A stretch of DNA of 64,000 bases from Limimonas halophila (GTDB taxonomy: Bacteria; Pseudomonadota; Alphaproteobacteria; Kiloniellales; Rhodovibrionaceae): contig NZ_FNCE01000002.1 of assembly GCF_900100655.1 (NCBI RefSeq), positions 1-64,000 on the forward strand, read 5' to 3'. Below the pieces are notes generated by a model, which was not told where the DNA came from, searched no databases, and saw nothing but the letters and a program-made list of their open reading frames with translations. Position numbers and translations under genes: made by a program. Within the stretch, counting starts at the first letter, position 1, and every line of letters starts with the position of its first letter. Below are positions 14,399 to 20,517 of this stretch, one piece after another.

Positions 14399-14670
14399 CC
14401 GTTCACGGGGTCGATCCGTTGATTGCACAGCCACCGCAGCAGGTCCGTGTCGTGCTCGGGCGTGGGATCTTCCAGGCCGGTGATCCAGGCGTAAAGCGTG
14501 GCGTCCGGCACCTGGAGAAGCGCCTCGTAGCGTTCCAGTTGCTCGGGGGTCAAGCTGGCGAGGTGGCGGTCGGCGAAGGTGCCGATCAGCAGGTCCATCT
14601 CCCGCGTGCCGCGGTGCCAGCTCATGAAATAGGCGCGCTTGCGCCGCGTCTCGAGGTCGCTGCCGGTCAT
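14395..14670 (-). CDS. sdhE: Succinate dehydrogenase flavinylation factor SdhE (DUF339)
   Basis: A 91-aa protein of the SdhE/SDHAF2 family, which promotes covalent FAD attachment to succinate dehydrogenase subunit A. The family core is clear: RRKRAYFMSWHRGTREMDLLIG, whose RGxxE is the conserved flavinylation motif, then LERYEALLQVPDATLYAWI. The start ATG at 14670 has GGGGAGA upstream. The gene runs directly into mfd (GTGA overlap) and is divergent from recG, so its control region overlaps the recG 5' region. Confidence 0.9.
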   Translation of the reverse strand: MTGSDLETRRKRAYFMSWHRGTREMDLLIGTFADRHLASLTPEQLERYEALLQVPDATLYAWITGLEDPTPEHDTDLLRWLCNQRIDPVNG

Positions 14671-14791
14671 CGGCCTGTCTCCCCTGTGCTGTCTGGATAT
14701 AAGCGAACCTGCCCCAGCTGTCACGGCTTGGGGTGGCGGCGCGTGCCTGCTATGGGATCGCGGGACGCCGCGAGACGGGGAGGGAGCAGCC

Positions 14792-16873
14792 CTGCGCCCG
14801 CAGATCCTCAATCCGCTGTTCGCCGGGATCACCACGCTCAAGGGCGTCGGGCCGCGCAACGCCAAGGCGTTCGCGAAGCTCGCCGGCGAGCGTGTGGTGG
14901 ATCTGTTGTGGCTGCTGCCCACGGGCGTCATCGACCGCAGCCACGCCCCCAGCGTGCGCGAGGCCGAGGACGGCCGCGTCGCCACGCTGACGGTGCGCGT
15001 CGAGGACCACCGCCCGCCGCGCTCCCAGCGCGCGCCCTACCGCGTCATGTGCATGGACGACACCGGCGTGCTGGAGCTGGTGTTCTTCAACGTGAAGGGC
15101 GACCACCTCACGCGCCTCCTGCCGGTGGGCGAGTGGCGCGTGGTCAGCGGCAAGGTCTCGCACTACCAGGGCCGGGTGCAGATCCAGCACCCCGACCACG
15201 TCGTCCCGCCCGAGCAGCGCGGCGAGGTGCAGGGCGTGGAGCCGGTGTATCCGCTCACCGCCGGGCTGGTGCTGAAGGTGGTTCGCAAGGCCATCCGCGC
15301 GGCGCTGTCGCGCACGCCCGACCTGCCGGAATGGCTTGACCCCGCGCACCGCGAGCGCGAGGGCTGGCCCGTGTGGCGCGACGCCGTCGAGGCCTCGCAC
15401 GCGCCGCAACGCGAGGCCGACCTGCAACCCGACACGCCCGCCCGGCGGCGGTTGGCTTACGACGAATTCCTGGCCAACCAGCTCGCGCTCGCCCTCGTGC
15501 GCCGCCAGCAGACGCGCCTGAAGGGCCGGGCGATCCAGGGCGACGGGCACCTGCGCGCGAAGGCGCTCGCGGCGCTGCCCTTCGAGCTGACGGGCAGCCA
15601 GCGCGAGGCGGTGCACGAGGTGCTGGCCGACATGGCCGCGCCGCACCGCATGCTGCGGCTGCTCCAGGGCGACGTGGGCAGCGGCAAGACGGTCGTGGCC
15701 GTCCAGGCCATGCTGGCGGCGGTGGAAGCCGGCTGTCAGGCCGCCGTCATGGCGCCGACGGAGGTGCTCGCGCGCCAGCACTTCGCCACGATCCAGCCCA
15801 TGGCGGAAGCGGCGGGCGTTGAGACGCTGCTGCTCACCGGCAAGGACACCCGCGCCGCGCGCCAGCAGGCGGTGGAAAAGCTGCGAACCGGCGCCGCCGG
15901 CATCGCCGTGGGCACGCACGCGCTCTTCCAGCAGTCCGTGGAATTTCACGACCTCGGGCTGGCGGTCATCGACGAGCAGCACCGCTTCGGTGTGCACCAG
16001 CGCATGTCGCTCCAGGCGAAGGGGAAGGGCGTCGACGTGCTCGTGATGACCGCCACGCCCATCCCGCGCACGCTGCTGCTGACCTCCTACGGCGACATGG
16101 AGGCCTCGCGCATCACGGAAAAACCCGCGGGCCGGCAGCCGGTGGACACGCGCACCGTCTCCCTGGACCGCATTTCGGAGGTGGTCGACGGCGTCGCCCG
16201 CGCCATGGACCAGGGCAGCAAGGTCTTCTGGGTGTGCCCGCTGGTGGAGGAGAGCGAGCAGACCGACGTTTCGGCGGCGGAAGAGCGCTATGCGGTGCTG
16301 AAGGAGCGCTTCGGCGGGCGCGTCGGCCTCGTCCACGGCCGCATGAAGAGTGCCGAGAAAGAGCGCGTCATGGCGGCCTTCCGCGACGGCGACGTGGACC
16401 TGCTGGTCGCCACGACGGTGATCGAGGTCGGCGTGGACGTGCCCGCCGCGACCCTGATGGTGATCGAGCACGCTGAGCGCTTCGGGCTGGCGCAGCTTCA
16501 TCAGTTGCGCGGCCGCATCGGGCGGGGTTCGGCCCGCAGCACCTGCGTCCTGCTGTACCAAGGACCGCTCGGCGAAACGGCGCGGGGACGCCTGCGCATC
16601 ATGCGCGAGACGGACGACGGCTTCCAAATCGCGGAGGAAGACATGCGCCTGCGCGGGGCCGGCGAGGTGCTGGGCACGCGCCAGAGCGGCTTCCCCGAGT
16701 TCCGCGTGGCCGATCCGGGCGCGCACGAGGACCTGCTCGCCGTAGCTCGCGACGACAGCCAGCTCGTCCTCCACCGCGACCCGGAGCTTCAGGGCGAGCG
16801 CGGGCAGGCGCTGCGCGTGCTCCTCTACCTCTTCGAACGCGACGTCGCCGTTCGATATTTGCGATCCGGGTAA
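14792..16873 (+). CDS. recG: ATP-dependent DNA helicase RecG (apparent CTG start)
   Basis: RecG remodels stalled forks and branched DNA. The N-terminal wedge region starts LRPQILNPLFAGITTLKGVG; helicase motifs follow: GDVGSGKT near residue 293, DEQHRFG, TATPIPRTLLL and QLRGRIGRGS. No ATG, GTG or TTG is in frame between a TTG at 14639, which lies antisense inside sdhE, and a GTG near 14890, which would delete conserved residues. A CTG at 14792 is preceded at ideal distance by GGGGAGGG and gives 693 aa, the usual RecG length. I therefore take CTG as the probable start; the TTG at 14639 (744 aa) is the alternative. Confidence 0.92.
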   Translation: MRPQILNPLFAGITTLKGVGPRNAKAFAKLAGERVVDLLWLLPTGVIDRSHAPSVREAEDGRVATLTVRVEDHRPPRSQRAPYRVMCMDDTGVLELVFFNVKGDHLTRLLPVGEWRVVSGKVSHYQGRVQIQHPDHVVPPEQRGEVQGVEPVYPLTAGLVLKVVRKAIRAALSRTPDLPEWLDPAHREREGWPVWRDAVEASHAPQREADLQPDTPARRRLAYDEFLANQLALALVRRQQTRLKGRAIQGDGHLRAKALAALPFELTGSQREAVHEVLADMAAPHRMLRLLQGDVGSGKTVVAVQAMLAAVEAGCQAAVMAPTEVLARQHFATIQPMAEAAGVETLLLTGKDTRAARQQAVEKLRTGAAGIAVGTHALFQQSVEFHDLGLAVIDEQHRFGVHQRMSLQAKGKGVDVLVMTATPIPRTLLLTSYGDMEASRITEKPAGRQPVDTRTVSLDRISEVVDGVARAMDQGSKVFWVCPLVEESEQTDVSAAEERYAVLKERFGGRVGLVHGRMKSAEKERVMAAFRDGDVDLLVATTVIEVGVDVPAATLMVIEHAERFGLAQLHQLRGRIGRGSARSTCVLLYQGPLGETARGRLRIMRETDDGFQIAEEDMRLRGAGEVLGTRQSGFPEFRVADPGAHEDLLAVARDDSQLVLHRDPELQGERGQALRVLLYLFERDVAVRYLRSG

Positions 16874-17099
16874 ACGGTGGGCCGTTTAATCCCGTCCGAA
16901 CGCCATCAATGCGGGCGTTTCGGACTCCAGGCCCATATCGGCTGCCGAAAACGGTGGGCCGTTTAATCCCGTCCGAACGCCATCAATGCGGGCGTTTCGG
17001 ACTCCAGGCCCATATCGGCTGCCGAAAACGGTGGGCCGTTTAATCCCGTGAGAACGCCATCAATGCGGGTGCCCGGCACCAGGCCGATATCGGCCGCCG
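16872..17099. repeat. 77-bp tandem repeat, 2.9 copies
   Basis: Two identical 77-bp units (16874-16950 and 16951-17027) and a diverged third (17028-17099) follow recG immediately; the first unit overlaps its stop codon. Each unit holds a small stem (AAACGG-TGGG-CCGTTT) and a larger imperfect stem (TCCGAACGCC with GGCGTTTCGGA). No open frame spans it. It fills most of the recG-to-kinase gap; the remaining ~118 bp before 17218 hold no recognisable feature beyond the probable kinase promoter. Function is unknown: structured RNA, stacked terminators and a binding array are all possible. Confidence 0.85.
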
Positions 17100-17217
17100 T
17101 GGTTCCATCGGTGTTTGAATGGGCCGCGGGTTTCGACGGCTACCCGAATAGGGTACAAATTTTGGCGTGCTTGCCAGATACAGCGAATTGCGACCGACAC
17201 GTTTGACGCCGCGAACC

Positions 17218-19149
17218 ATGCGCCTGATCGCCCGAACCGCCTCTGCCGCGGCAACCGTGCTGGTGGCGCTCGCGGTGCTCGTGATCGCTGCGCCGGTGCA
17301 GGCGGAGGGGAAACGGGTGCTTTTGCTGAGCGCCTATCACCCCACCTTCTCGCACGTTGACGACCAGATCGAAGGCGTTCGGGCGGGCCTCGCGAAAGCC
17401 GGGCTGGGCGAACACGCCTATCAGCTCGACGTCGAGTTCATGGACACGAAGCGCTTTCCCGAGCAGCGCAACGTCGCCGAGTTCCGCAGCCGCCTTCGCT
17501 ACAAGCTCGCCAACGCCCCCGAATACGACCTCGTCATCGCCGCGGACGACAACGCCCTGACGTTCGCGCTGGCCGAGCAAAAGGGCATGTTCGCGGAAAC
17601 CCCGATCGTGTTCCTGGGTGTCAACGACCGCGACCTCGCGCGGCGCCAGCAATCGAACCCCGGCGTCACAGGGGTTGTGGAGTCCAGCTCCATGGCCGGC
17701 ACCTTGCGCCTGATGCGTCGGCTGACAGCGCAAGACGGGGCGGTCCATGTGATCAGCGACGCCAGCACGACGGGCCGCGCGTTGCTGGAGCGGCTGCGCA
17801 CGGTGGTAGCGGACATCCCCGCCATCGAGCTGAAGGTCATTTCACTGGCGGAGATGACGTTTGCCGAGTTCGAGCGCCGCTTGGCGGCGCTGCCGCCGGA
17901 GAGCGACCTGTTGCTGCTGTCCGCGTTTCAGGACGAAAGCGGGCAAACGCGCAGCTTCGAGCGAAGCCTGGACGCGATCGTCAGCCACACCGACGCTCCC
18001 GTGTATTACCTCTGGCGCAAGGGCATCGGTGAGGGCCTGCTGGGCGGCCGGGTGGTGAGCCACCGGGTGCAGGGGCGTGTTGCCGGCCACATGGCCGGCC
18101 GGATTCTCCAGGGCACCGCCCCAAGCGAGATCCCGGTTCAAACTGAAAGTCCCAACCGCGTCATCTTCGATTACACGCTCTTGGATCGCTACGGCATCGA
18201 TCCTGCGGCGCTTCCCGAGGACACCATCCGCGTCAACGAGCCTGAGCGGGTGTGGGACACCCACCCCTATCTGGTTCTTGCGGCGACAGTGATCGGGGTG
18301 CTGCTGCTCATGATCATCGCGGGGCTGGTTGTGTTCGCGCGCTTGCGTCAGCGCACGGCCCAGCGCCTGGCGTGGTATCAGCGAGAACTGGAAAACAGCC
18401 TGGAGGAACGCACCCGCGCCCGCGACGAAGCCGAGCGGGCCAACGCGGCCAAGTCCGACTTCCTGGCGTCAATGAGCCACGAACTGCGCACGCCGCTCAA
18501 TGCCGTGATCGGTTATGCCGAGATCATGGAGCAGGAACTGATGGGGCCGCTGGGCCAACCGCAGTACCGCGACTACGTGCGCGACATCCGTGCCAGCGGC
18601 GAGCACCTGCTGGAGCTGGTGAACGACGTCCTCGACCTCTCCAAAATCGAGGTCGGGCGCTACGAGTTGAACGAGCGGGACGTGCCGATTGCCGAGGTGG
18701 TGCAGCAAGCCGTCGCGATCGCCCGCCCCAAGGCCAACGCCAAGGGGCTGGCGCTCGCCAACCACGTAACCGACGGCTTTCGGGTGTGCGCGGACGAGCG
18801 TGCGCTCCGCCAGATCCTGTTGAACCTGCTGACCAACGCCGTGAAATACACGCCCGAAGGTGGCCGCGTGAGCGTCGAGGCCACGGCCGACGGCCCTGTA
18901 TCGATCACGGTGCGTGACACGGGCACGGGGATCGCGCAGGCGGATCTGGACAGCATCTTCGAGCCGTTCAGGCAAGGCGAAAACGCCCGTTACCACCGCA
19001 AGCAGGGCACGGGCATCGGGCTGGCGGTGAGCCGAAAGCTGGCCCTGATGCACGACGGCGATCTGGAGTTGCAAAGTGAGGAAGGCGTCGGGACCGCCGT
19101 GACCCTGTACCTGCCGGAAAGCCGGGTTGTGGCAGCGGCAGCAGCGTAA
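17218..19149 (+). CDS. Sensor histidine kinase with ABC-type periplasmic binding domain
   Basis: About 643 aa. A signal sequence (MRLIARTASAAATVLVALAVLVIAAPVQA) precedes a ~300-residue domain resembling ABC_sub_bind periplasmic proteins (KRVLLLSAYHPTFSHVDDQIEGVRAGL; VIAADDNALTFAL; PIVFLGVNDRD). One transmembrane helix follows at about 350-372, then a short coiled coil. HisKA has SMSHELRTPLN with phospho-acceptor His421, and the HATPase domain has the N-box NLLTNAVKYTPEGG and G-boxes. There is no receiver domain and no response-regulator gene beside it, so its partner is elsewhere. The ligand is unknown. The start was chosen at ATG 17218 because the signal peptide begins there. Its end faces the convergent quinone oxidoreductase gene. 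Confidence 0.88.
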   Translation: MRLIARTASAAATVLVALAVLVIAAPVQAEGKRVLLLSAYHPTFSHVDDQIEGVRAGLAKAGLGEHAYQLDVEFMDTKRFPEQRNVAEFRSRLRYKLANAPEYDLVIAADDNALTFALAEQKGMFAETPIVFLGVNDRDLARRQQSNPGVTGVVESSSMAGTLRLMRRLTAQDGAVHVISDASTTGRALLERLRTVVADIPAIELKVISLAEMTFAEFERRLAALPPESDLLLLSAFQDESGQTRSFERSLDAIVSHTDAPVYYLWRKGIGEGLLGGRVVSHRVQGRVAGHMAGRILQGTAPSEIPVQTESPNRVIFDYTLLDRYGIDPAALPEDTIRVNEPERVWDTHPYLVLAATVIGVLLLMIIAGLVVFARLRQRTAQRLAWYQRELENSLEERTRARDEAERANAAKSDFLASMSHELRTPLNAVIGYAEIMEQELMGPLGQPQYRDYVRDIRASGEHLLELVNDVLDLSKIEVGRYELNERDVPIAEVVQQAVAIARPKANAKGLALANHVTDGFRVCADERALRQILLNLLTNAVKYTPEGGRVSVEATADGPVSITVRDTGTGIAQADLDSIFEPFRQGENARYHRKQGTGIGLAVSRKLALMHDGDLELQSEEGVGTAVTLYLPESRVVAAAAA

Positions 19150-19772: not shown

Positions 19773-19888
19773 GACGCCGATAGCTTCCAAGCTCGGTGGC
19801 GAGACCACCGAAACGTATATTCGACCAGCGCGATATCGCGGATGGCCTCACCGACGCAGCGTGACAAACGCCGGTATCTTTCAAGCTA
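19773..19888. repeat. Intergenic A-B-A repeat, copy 1
   Basis: Modules: A (GACGCCGATAGCTTCCAAGC, 19773-19793), B (37 bp, 19818-19854, centred on GCGATATCGC) and a diverged A (about 19867-19888, CGCCGGTATCTTTCAAGCTA). The whole arrangement is repeated ~190 bp downstream. It lies upstream of the quinone oxidoreductase gene. Confidence 0.8.
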
Positions 19889-19961
19889 CCATCGGATAGG
19901 AGTCCCCGCGCTCGCCGCGACTTGCGTGGCGCTGATGCTTTCGACCGACGTGGCGCGACAG

Positions 19962-20075
19962 GCGCCGATAGCTTCCAAGCTCGACGGAGAGGACGTCGGG
20001 GCATTTATTCGACCAGCGCGATATCGCGGATGGCCTCACCGAAGTCTCGTGACTGACGCCGATAGCTTCCAAGCT
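19962..20075. repeat. Intergenic A-B-A repeat, copy 2
   Basis: Second copy of the same arrangement: A at 19962-19983, B at 20006-20042 (identical to copy 1 over its 37 bp), and A at 20055-20075. The last A module runs into the stop codon of sufA. Together the copies fill the ~325 bp between the quinone oxidoreductase start and sufA; no gene is evident in the gap. Confidence 0.8.
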
Positions 20076-20412
20076 ATATGGTGAAGCTTTCGCCGCAGCC
20101 GCAGCGGCCCTTTTCGTTGGGGTTGTTGAAGACGAAGCCGCTTTCGATGCGCCCTTCCTGATAGTCGATCTGCGCACCGAAGAGGAACATGATCGAGGAG
20201 GGCTCCAGGTAAATCTTCACGCCCTTGTCCTCGATCTCGTCCTCGTTCTCGCGCTTTTCGTGGGCGTACTCGAAATGGTAGCTGAGCCCGGAACAGCCCT
20301 TGGTGCGCACACCCACGCGGAGCGCCTGCACGGGCTCGTCGCTCTGGGCGATGAGCTCCTTCATGCGGTTCGCGGCGTTGTCGGTCAGCGTGACCAGGGC
20401 CGGACTCATCAT
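20074..20412 (-). CDS. sufA: Fe-S cluster A-type carrier / insertion protein (SufA/HesB family)
   Basis: A 112-aa A-type carrier that accepts clusters from the SUF scaffold and passes them to apoproteins. The three conserved cysteines are present: one in RTKGCSGLSYHF and two in the C-terminal GRCGCGESF. It is the last gene of the suf operon, ~105 bp after the sufT-like gene. Start is the first of two adjacent ATGs (20412, 20409) behind AGGAAAGGG. Its stop codon lies at the edge of an intergenic repeat. Confidence 0.92.
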   Translation of the reverse strand: MMSPALVTLTDNAANRMKELIAQSDEPVQALRVGVRTKGCSGLSYHFEYAHEKRENEDEIEDKGVKIYLEPSSIMFLFGAQIDYQEGRIESGFVFNNPNEKGRCGCGESFTI

Positions 20413-20517
20413 CGGTGTGTCCCTTTCCTCAAATCGGCGTGGCCGGCGCACGGCCATAATGCAGTCTAACGCGTGTGCCGCGACGGCCCAACACCAGGAC
20501 GCGTGGGGGTTTTTCCT

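Follow-up and report, generated by a model that had tools for sequence, protein, structure and literature searches.

REP-like repeats are widespread, and the origin and structural upkeep of the families that have no transposase are an open question. REPs lie by the 3' ends of open reading frames and sometimes supply the stop codon itself (PMC3733652). The CGTC REPs, which are typical of alphaproteobacteria, also occur without a transposase (Di Nocera 2013, PMC3733652). For TnpA-REP, it has been proposed that the cleavage dinucleotide is chosen by its complementarity to a guide dinucleotide within the GTAG tag, and altering the guide alters the cut site (PMC8266576). In E. coli, translation is reduced by REPs that lie within 15 nt of a stop codon (PMC12306157).

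The locus described here lies in the window, a 64,000-nt stretch of a Limimonas halophila contig (NZ_FNCE01000002.1, positions 1 to 64,000), where the helicase gene recG runs into a tandem array at 16872-17099. With a period of 77 and 3.0 copies (TRF), the array is by far the top-scoring tandem repeat in the window, and the first-pass annotation was right to describe two identical 77-bp units followed by a diverged third. On the forward strand, unit 1 (16872-16948) consists of a head hairpin and a body referred to as body A, unit 2 (16949-17025) has the same sequence, and unit 3 (17026-17099) is 86% identical to both and has a degraded body. The recG reading frame as listed spans 14639-16873 on the same strand (conserved protein from near 14807) and ends in a TAA at 16871-16873, two bases of which also belong to unit 1, so that the reported overlap of the first unit with the stop codon holds as well. 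The C-terminus of RecG reads ..YLRSG*, and the RecG proteins of the nearest relatives end at the same residues; the recG stop is therefore native and the start of the array is the natural end of the gene. The identity of units 1 and 2 fits the recent duplication that had been suggested, and we infer from it that these two units are the product of a local tandem duplication.

Two hairpins are present per unit: AAACGG-TGGG-CCGTTT forms the head, and GTCCGAACGCC..GGGCGTTTCGGAC forms a stem in the body. The unit 1 head (16871-16893, forward strand), which includes the recG stop, pairs 16871-16877 with 16882-16888 around a TGGG loop (16878-16881) and is followed by ATC (16889-16891) and then by CC (16892-16893), which is complementary to the GG of the loop (16880-16881). 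The heads of unit 2 (16948-16970) and unit 3 (17025-17047) have the same layout on the same strand, with an unpaired A/A at the foot. The body-A inverted repeat of unit 1 (16894-16925, forward strand) recurs at +77 in unit 2; the claim of two stems per unit is accurate, the body stem being good in units 1 and 2 and degraded in unit 3. Within the window the 20-bp head has three matches at up to 3 mismatches, compared with 0 in 100 shuffles, an excess that excludes chance. Folding of a single unit is modest (z -1.9; z -0.6 for unit 3), and the whole array folds more clearly (z -3.3; 0 of 200 shuffles as good), although this value partly reflects duplication because the array fold pairs stretches of the duplicated units with each other. 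Covariation was found for the head, whereas the backing for the body-A stem across body-A copies was not convincing.

One question is whether the array serves the junction at which it sits. Downstream lies a sensor kinase gene (17167-19149, forward strand; domains ABC_sub_bind, HisKA and HATPase_c), a neighbour outside the element, and the position of the array between the two genes, together with its better-than-shuffled fold, would be in keeping with a regulatory leader, terminator or small-RNA gene specific to recG and the kinase. We regard this reading as very improbable. Approximately 95 related units lie at unrelated genes, and the likely kinase start, placed at ATG 17218 from the signal peptide, falls ~120 nt beyond the end of the array, which further weakens the earlier suggestion that the array acts as a leader or promoter of the kinase gene. 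The array showed no promoter-like site, no intrinsic terminator (a GC-rich stem followed by a T run) was found in 16700-17400, where 0.5 would be expected by chance, and Rfam returned no family match above gathering score, with only tRNA/tmRNA-type and sub-threshold matches near elements. Termination of recG read-through is also disfavoured by two other element copies, each followed by an ordinary terminator. With the element present at dozens of unrelated genes, kinase control, termination and a small RNA gain no support, and the units are better described as gene-end REP-like elements than as a switch for the neighbouring kinase gene. Our preferred explanation, which as a whole we hold at somewhat better than even confidence, is that the recG array represents three tandem copies of one member of a dispersed, species-specific, REP-like family.

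A search of the 3.04 Mb genome with the 77-mer, as had been proposed, returned diverged copies on several other contigs, and the core common to them is the head, comprising the first ~23 bp of each unit and present in ~95 copies. The pattern AAACNGNNNNCNGTTTNATCCC has 47 matches in the genome versus 1 for a reversed-pattern control, and a looser head pattern has 78 versus 7. A covariance model built from the head plus 18 nt gave 96 matches in the genome at a cut-off of E<=0.01 and 0-2 in each of 29 relatives, all of other genera; head-pattern counts in relatives are approximately at chance level. In a sample of 385 alphaproteobacterial genomes searched with stricter filters, under which the L. 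halophila genome still yielded 18 matches, no other genome had more than 2 covariance-model matches. Judged by RecG, Ferruginivarius sediminum (Rhodovibrionaceae; 74% identity) is the closest named relative, and as far as the searched genomes show, the family appears to be confined to this species or genus. The array sequence matched nothing in a plasmid and phage search for a horizontal source, nor did a body-B pattern match any of 84,980 species genomes, a set from which the L. halophila genome is possibly absent. The first-pass annotation had reasoned that no copies in relatives and no compensatory change would point to a chance duplication; relatives indeed lack the element, but compensatory change within the genome is strong, and with ~95 copies the notion of a chance duplication fails.

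The family is a mosaic, with at least four body types following the head. Body A, the type at recG, is GCCATNAATGGGGGC..TCCAGGCCC; body B is GTCAYTCGACACCGGCGT..GGGTCTCTCACGACC and contains a hairpin led by TGTC; body C is GTCAG..GGACGCCCG..TCTTGGGGAAGG; and body D is GTTCGAGGTTCTGAGCGG. Units are mostly concatenated in the same orientation, with six clusters convergent and none divergent, and in places (C4:70168/70204 and C5:97581/97600) a second head is fused directly to the foot of the first.

Placement relative to genes follows a pattern. Among 51 clearly coding upstream genes, identified by a simple codon-usage frame call, 48 have a stop codon that is separated from the start of the element by 0-19 nt; in 35 of them the distance is 0-3 nt, and the others stop within the hairpin and use its TGA, TAG or TAA. 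RpsD and PolA, like RecG, reach their native C-termini at the element, and gene truncation by element insertion is excluded for all three. PurB ends in KHERV, which is encoded by the element and differs from the residues that usually end this protein, so that a few C-terminal residues have likely been replaced there, and the same may possibly be true of ArgB and LeuC. Edges of other kinds are also adjoined: an element starts one base past the CCA of tRNA-Leu, another lies antisense to tRNA-Ala and takes in its first base, and further antisense elements adjoin two start codons, those of holA and mutM (names read from N-terminal sequences). Since stops, tRNA ends and start codons are all adjoined, the rule is placement against a gene edge, mostly the 3' edge. 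At C5:39239, the antisense head lies 1 nt from the mutM ATG (MPELPEVE..), with no obvious room for a Shine-Dalgarno sequence outside the element. The polA gene is bracketed by heads at C7:24725 and C7:27578, one near its start (antisense) and one exactly at its stop codon. The ordinary terminators downstream of two other copies place those copies within transcripts; as a general rule downstream terminators do not hold, with 3 found versus 4 in the control.

Other repeats of the genome lie at gene edges too. A second array in the window, on the reverse strand at 19775-20076, carries a hairpin AGCTTGGAAGCT followed by ATCGGCG, with four copies in the window (19775, 19869, 19963 and 20057); contig C5 has another three (15606-15816). 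Of the window copies, the last extends over the TAG that ends an iron-sulfur assembly gene (complement 20074-20457), and placement at gene edges is therefore shared by repeats outside the AAAC-head family. Another dispersed palindrome, TAGAGCAGATCGCCGTAAAGCRGAATCA..TGATTCYGCTTGCTCGTGCG, occurs at L268 4653-4750, in L220 and in the C22:11700 region; the L268 copy begins on the TAG that terminates the gene preceding a group II intron. This complete-looking intron (C9:26930-28930; L268 4935-6935) encodes a 486-aa reverse transcriptase/maturase and sits just past the ordinary terminator that follows a PTS-type gene. Contigs C3, C5, C7, C8, C22, C23, C24, C25 and C26 end in or near elements, with an identical element end common to C7 and C22, and the repeats therefore probably broke the assembly.

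What is conserved in the head is its shape. From 5' to 3' it reads N AAAC NN, a loop of 3-5 nt, N'N' GTTT N', ATC and X'Y', with a stem of 7 bp. Across 45 gap-free copies, 98.8% of stem cells are paired, six of the stem pairs being ascertained because the scan demanded them; the covariation score in these copies is 0.611 versus 0.118 for shuffled data and is lost when the structure is slid. The AAAC/GTTT pairs are near-invariant, 3-4 Watson-Crick forms occur at the foot and at both upper pairs, and three stem pairs covary strongly. Two features that the scan did not require are also maintained. Of 60 copies, 54 keep the foot pair (shuffle maximum 35), and in 56 of 64 the final dinucleotide of the loop is complementary to the X'Y' after the ATC (shuffle mean 26.5, maximum 40). 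The loop-tail types are GG/CC, GC/GC and CG/CG, with GT/AC in one copy (C5:39239). The match is specific to one offset, where it occurs in 68 of 91 heads (z 9.7), many of the 23 misses being register errors of the automatic parse, and is not seen at other offsets. All of these counts are of copies that are related to one another and not of independent events, and heads may pass between bodies as cassettes; only about three independent loop-tail changes can be argued for. The match is unusual, but it comprises just 2 bp. An intramolecular RNA pseudoknot was rejected as its main reading, given the weakness of 2 bp and the 3-nt linker. A linker of 3 nt is sterically unlikely to span a 7-bp stem.

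One hypothesis for this conservation is that the heads form a cis-acting 3' UTR RNA family that the host maintains to tune translation termination or mRNA 3' stability, with mobility merely historical. The sense orientation after genes, the hairpin at or over the stop codon, the two copies upstream of ordinary terminators and hence in transcribed regions, and the lowered translation seen with E. coli REPs 15 nt or less from stops (PMC12306157) all speak for it. However, relatives with the same genes have no such elements, and heads adjoin a tRNA and start codons in antisense. Moreover, the stems contain as few G-U pairs (10 of 637 cells) as mismatches (8), although most stem pairs were ascertained. 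Typical RNA families are not so poor in G-U pairs. We consider this explanation unlikely.

The same arms, almost wholly Watson-Crick paired and poor in G-U and other mismatches, would be expected of neutral relics that hairpin-templated correction (quasi-palindrome mutagenesis) has kept regular and spacer deletion has brought to the gene edge, with no present enzyme or function; elements against genes on either side are what spacer deletion would leave. This hypothesis does not account for a loop dinucleotide that tracks a dinucleotide outside the stem, nor for a fixed AAAC/GTTT and ATC beside varying pairs, and we find it improbable.

We return to the reading of the array as copies of a dispersed REP-like element. 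The AAAC-head elements are probably mobile: repeats that carry no genes would have settled at the edges of genes, most of them directly at a stop codon. The recG array is probably part of the transcript of that gene, at the beginning of its 3' UTR, and by analogy with the E. coli REPs near stop codons, a hairpin at the stop could change how the recG message is translated or degraded. The shape of the head would most likely be kept because a mobilising enzyme recognises the folded single strand, a mode of recognition that the parallel with the TnpA-REP guide also suggests. The loop dinucleotide may somewhat resemble the guide sequences of TnpA-REP and IS200/IS605 transposases; it is complementary to the tail dinucleotide, as a guide and cleavage-site pair would be, cleavage being only putative here. 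A RAYT/IS200 transposase was rejected as the mobiliser, since PF01797 (Y1 transposase, RAYT) has no match in the genome while positive controls were detected, and no other enzyme was found linked to the heads. A retro-type origin was likewise set aside, the sole reverse transcriptase match of the genome being the group II intron maturase, which shows no visible link to the heads. A bolder proposal is a new structure-recognised mobile or target class, in which a guide dinucleotide in the loop must match a dinucleotide 3 bases past the foot, a non-Y1 enzyme acts, and insertion at gene boundaries is preferred. We offer it tentatively and rate its chances as low.

The covarying stem and the loop-tail match provide a quantitative signature for which every proposed enzyme or RNA function has to account, and the repeats lie exactly on gene boundaries, stop codons included, at ~60 loci in one genome. 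In practical terms, such repeats alter predicted C-termini and coincide with several contig ends of a draft assembly.

How does the family compare with described systems? Integron attC sites are recognised by structure and are located directly after gene stop codons. The AAAC elements share this emphasis on structure over sequence and the position right after stops, but their hosts are core chromosomal genes and tRNAs instead of cassettes, and the GTTT-N-AT of the head is incompatible with the GTTRRRY core. The BIMEs of enterobacteria are likewise intergenic mosaic arrays of palindromic units and other motifs, although the AAAC units run head to tail without alternating orientation and are built from different modules.

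The resemblance to CGTC REPs includes dispersed palindromes with complementary stem variants near the 3' ends of open reading frames, short loops of 4-5 nt, the lack of a dedicated transposase, and a body-B hairpin whose first bases, TGTC, are among the listed CGTC-tag variants. The AAAC head, however, has no CGTC, TGTC or CCTC tag at its foot, and its 7-bp stem has a conserved AAAC/GTTT. Where CGTC REPs have AT at stem positions 1-2 and a CCA-like tail, the AAAC head has a variable foot pair followed by AAAC and a tail of ATC plus a dinucleotide. CGTC REPs are mostly head-to-head dimers, whereas AAAC units share one orientation, and a loop-tail dinucleotide coupling is not described for them in PMC3733652.

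GTAG REPs with a RAYT are also gene-end palindromes, and their tag can supply a TAG stop. The AAAC heads carry no unpaired GTAG or close variant at the foot; the 3' foot instead reads NAT-C-X'Y', and at the 5' foot there is gene sequence that varies. This genome has no Y1 transposase/RAYT (PF01797). With a short palindrome (7-bp stem) present in 96 copies and extragenic at gene edges, the family has the general features of REPs, and we describe it as a new REP-like type, a mosaic palindromic element in the recG 3' UTR. In GTAG REPs a guide dinucleotide at the foot matches the cleavage dinucleotide (PMC8266576), whereas the putative guide of the AAAC head lies in its loop, and the TnpA-REP guide is the closest parallel we found to the loop-tail coupling.
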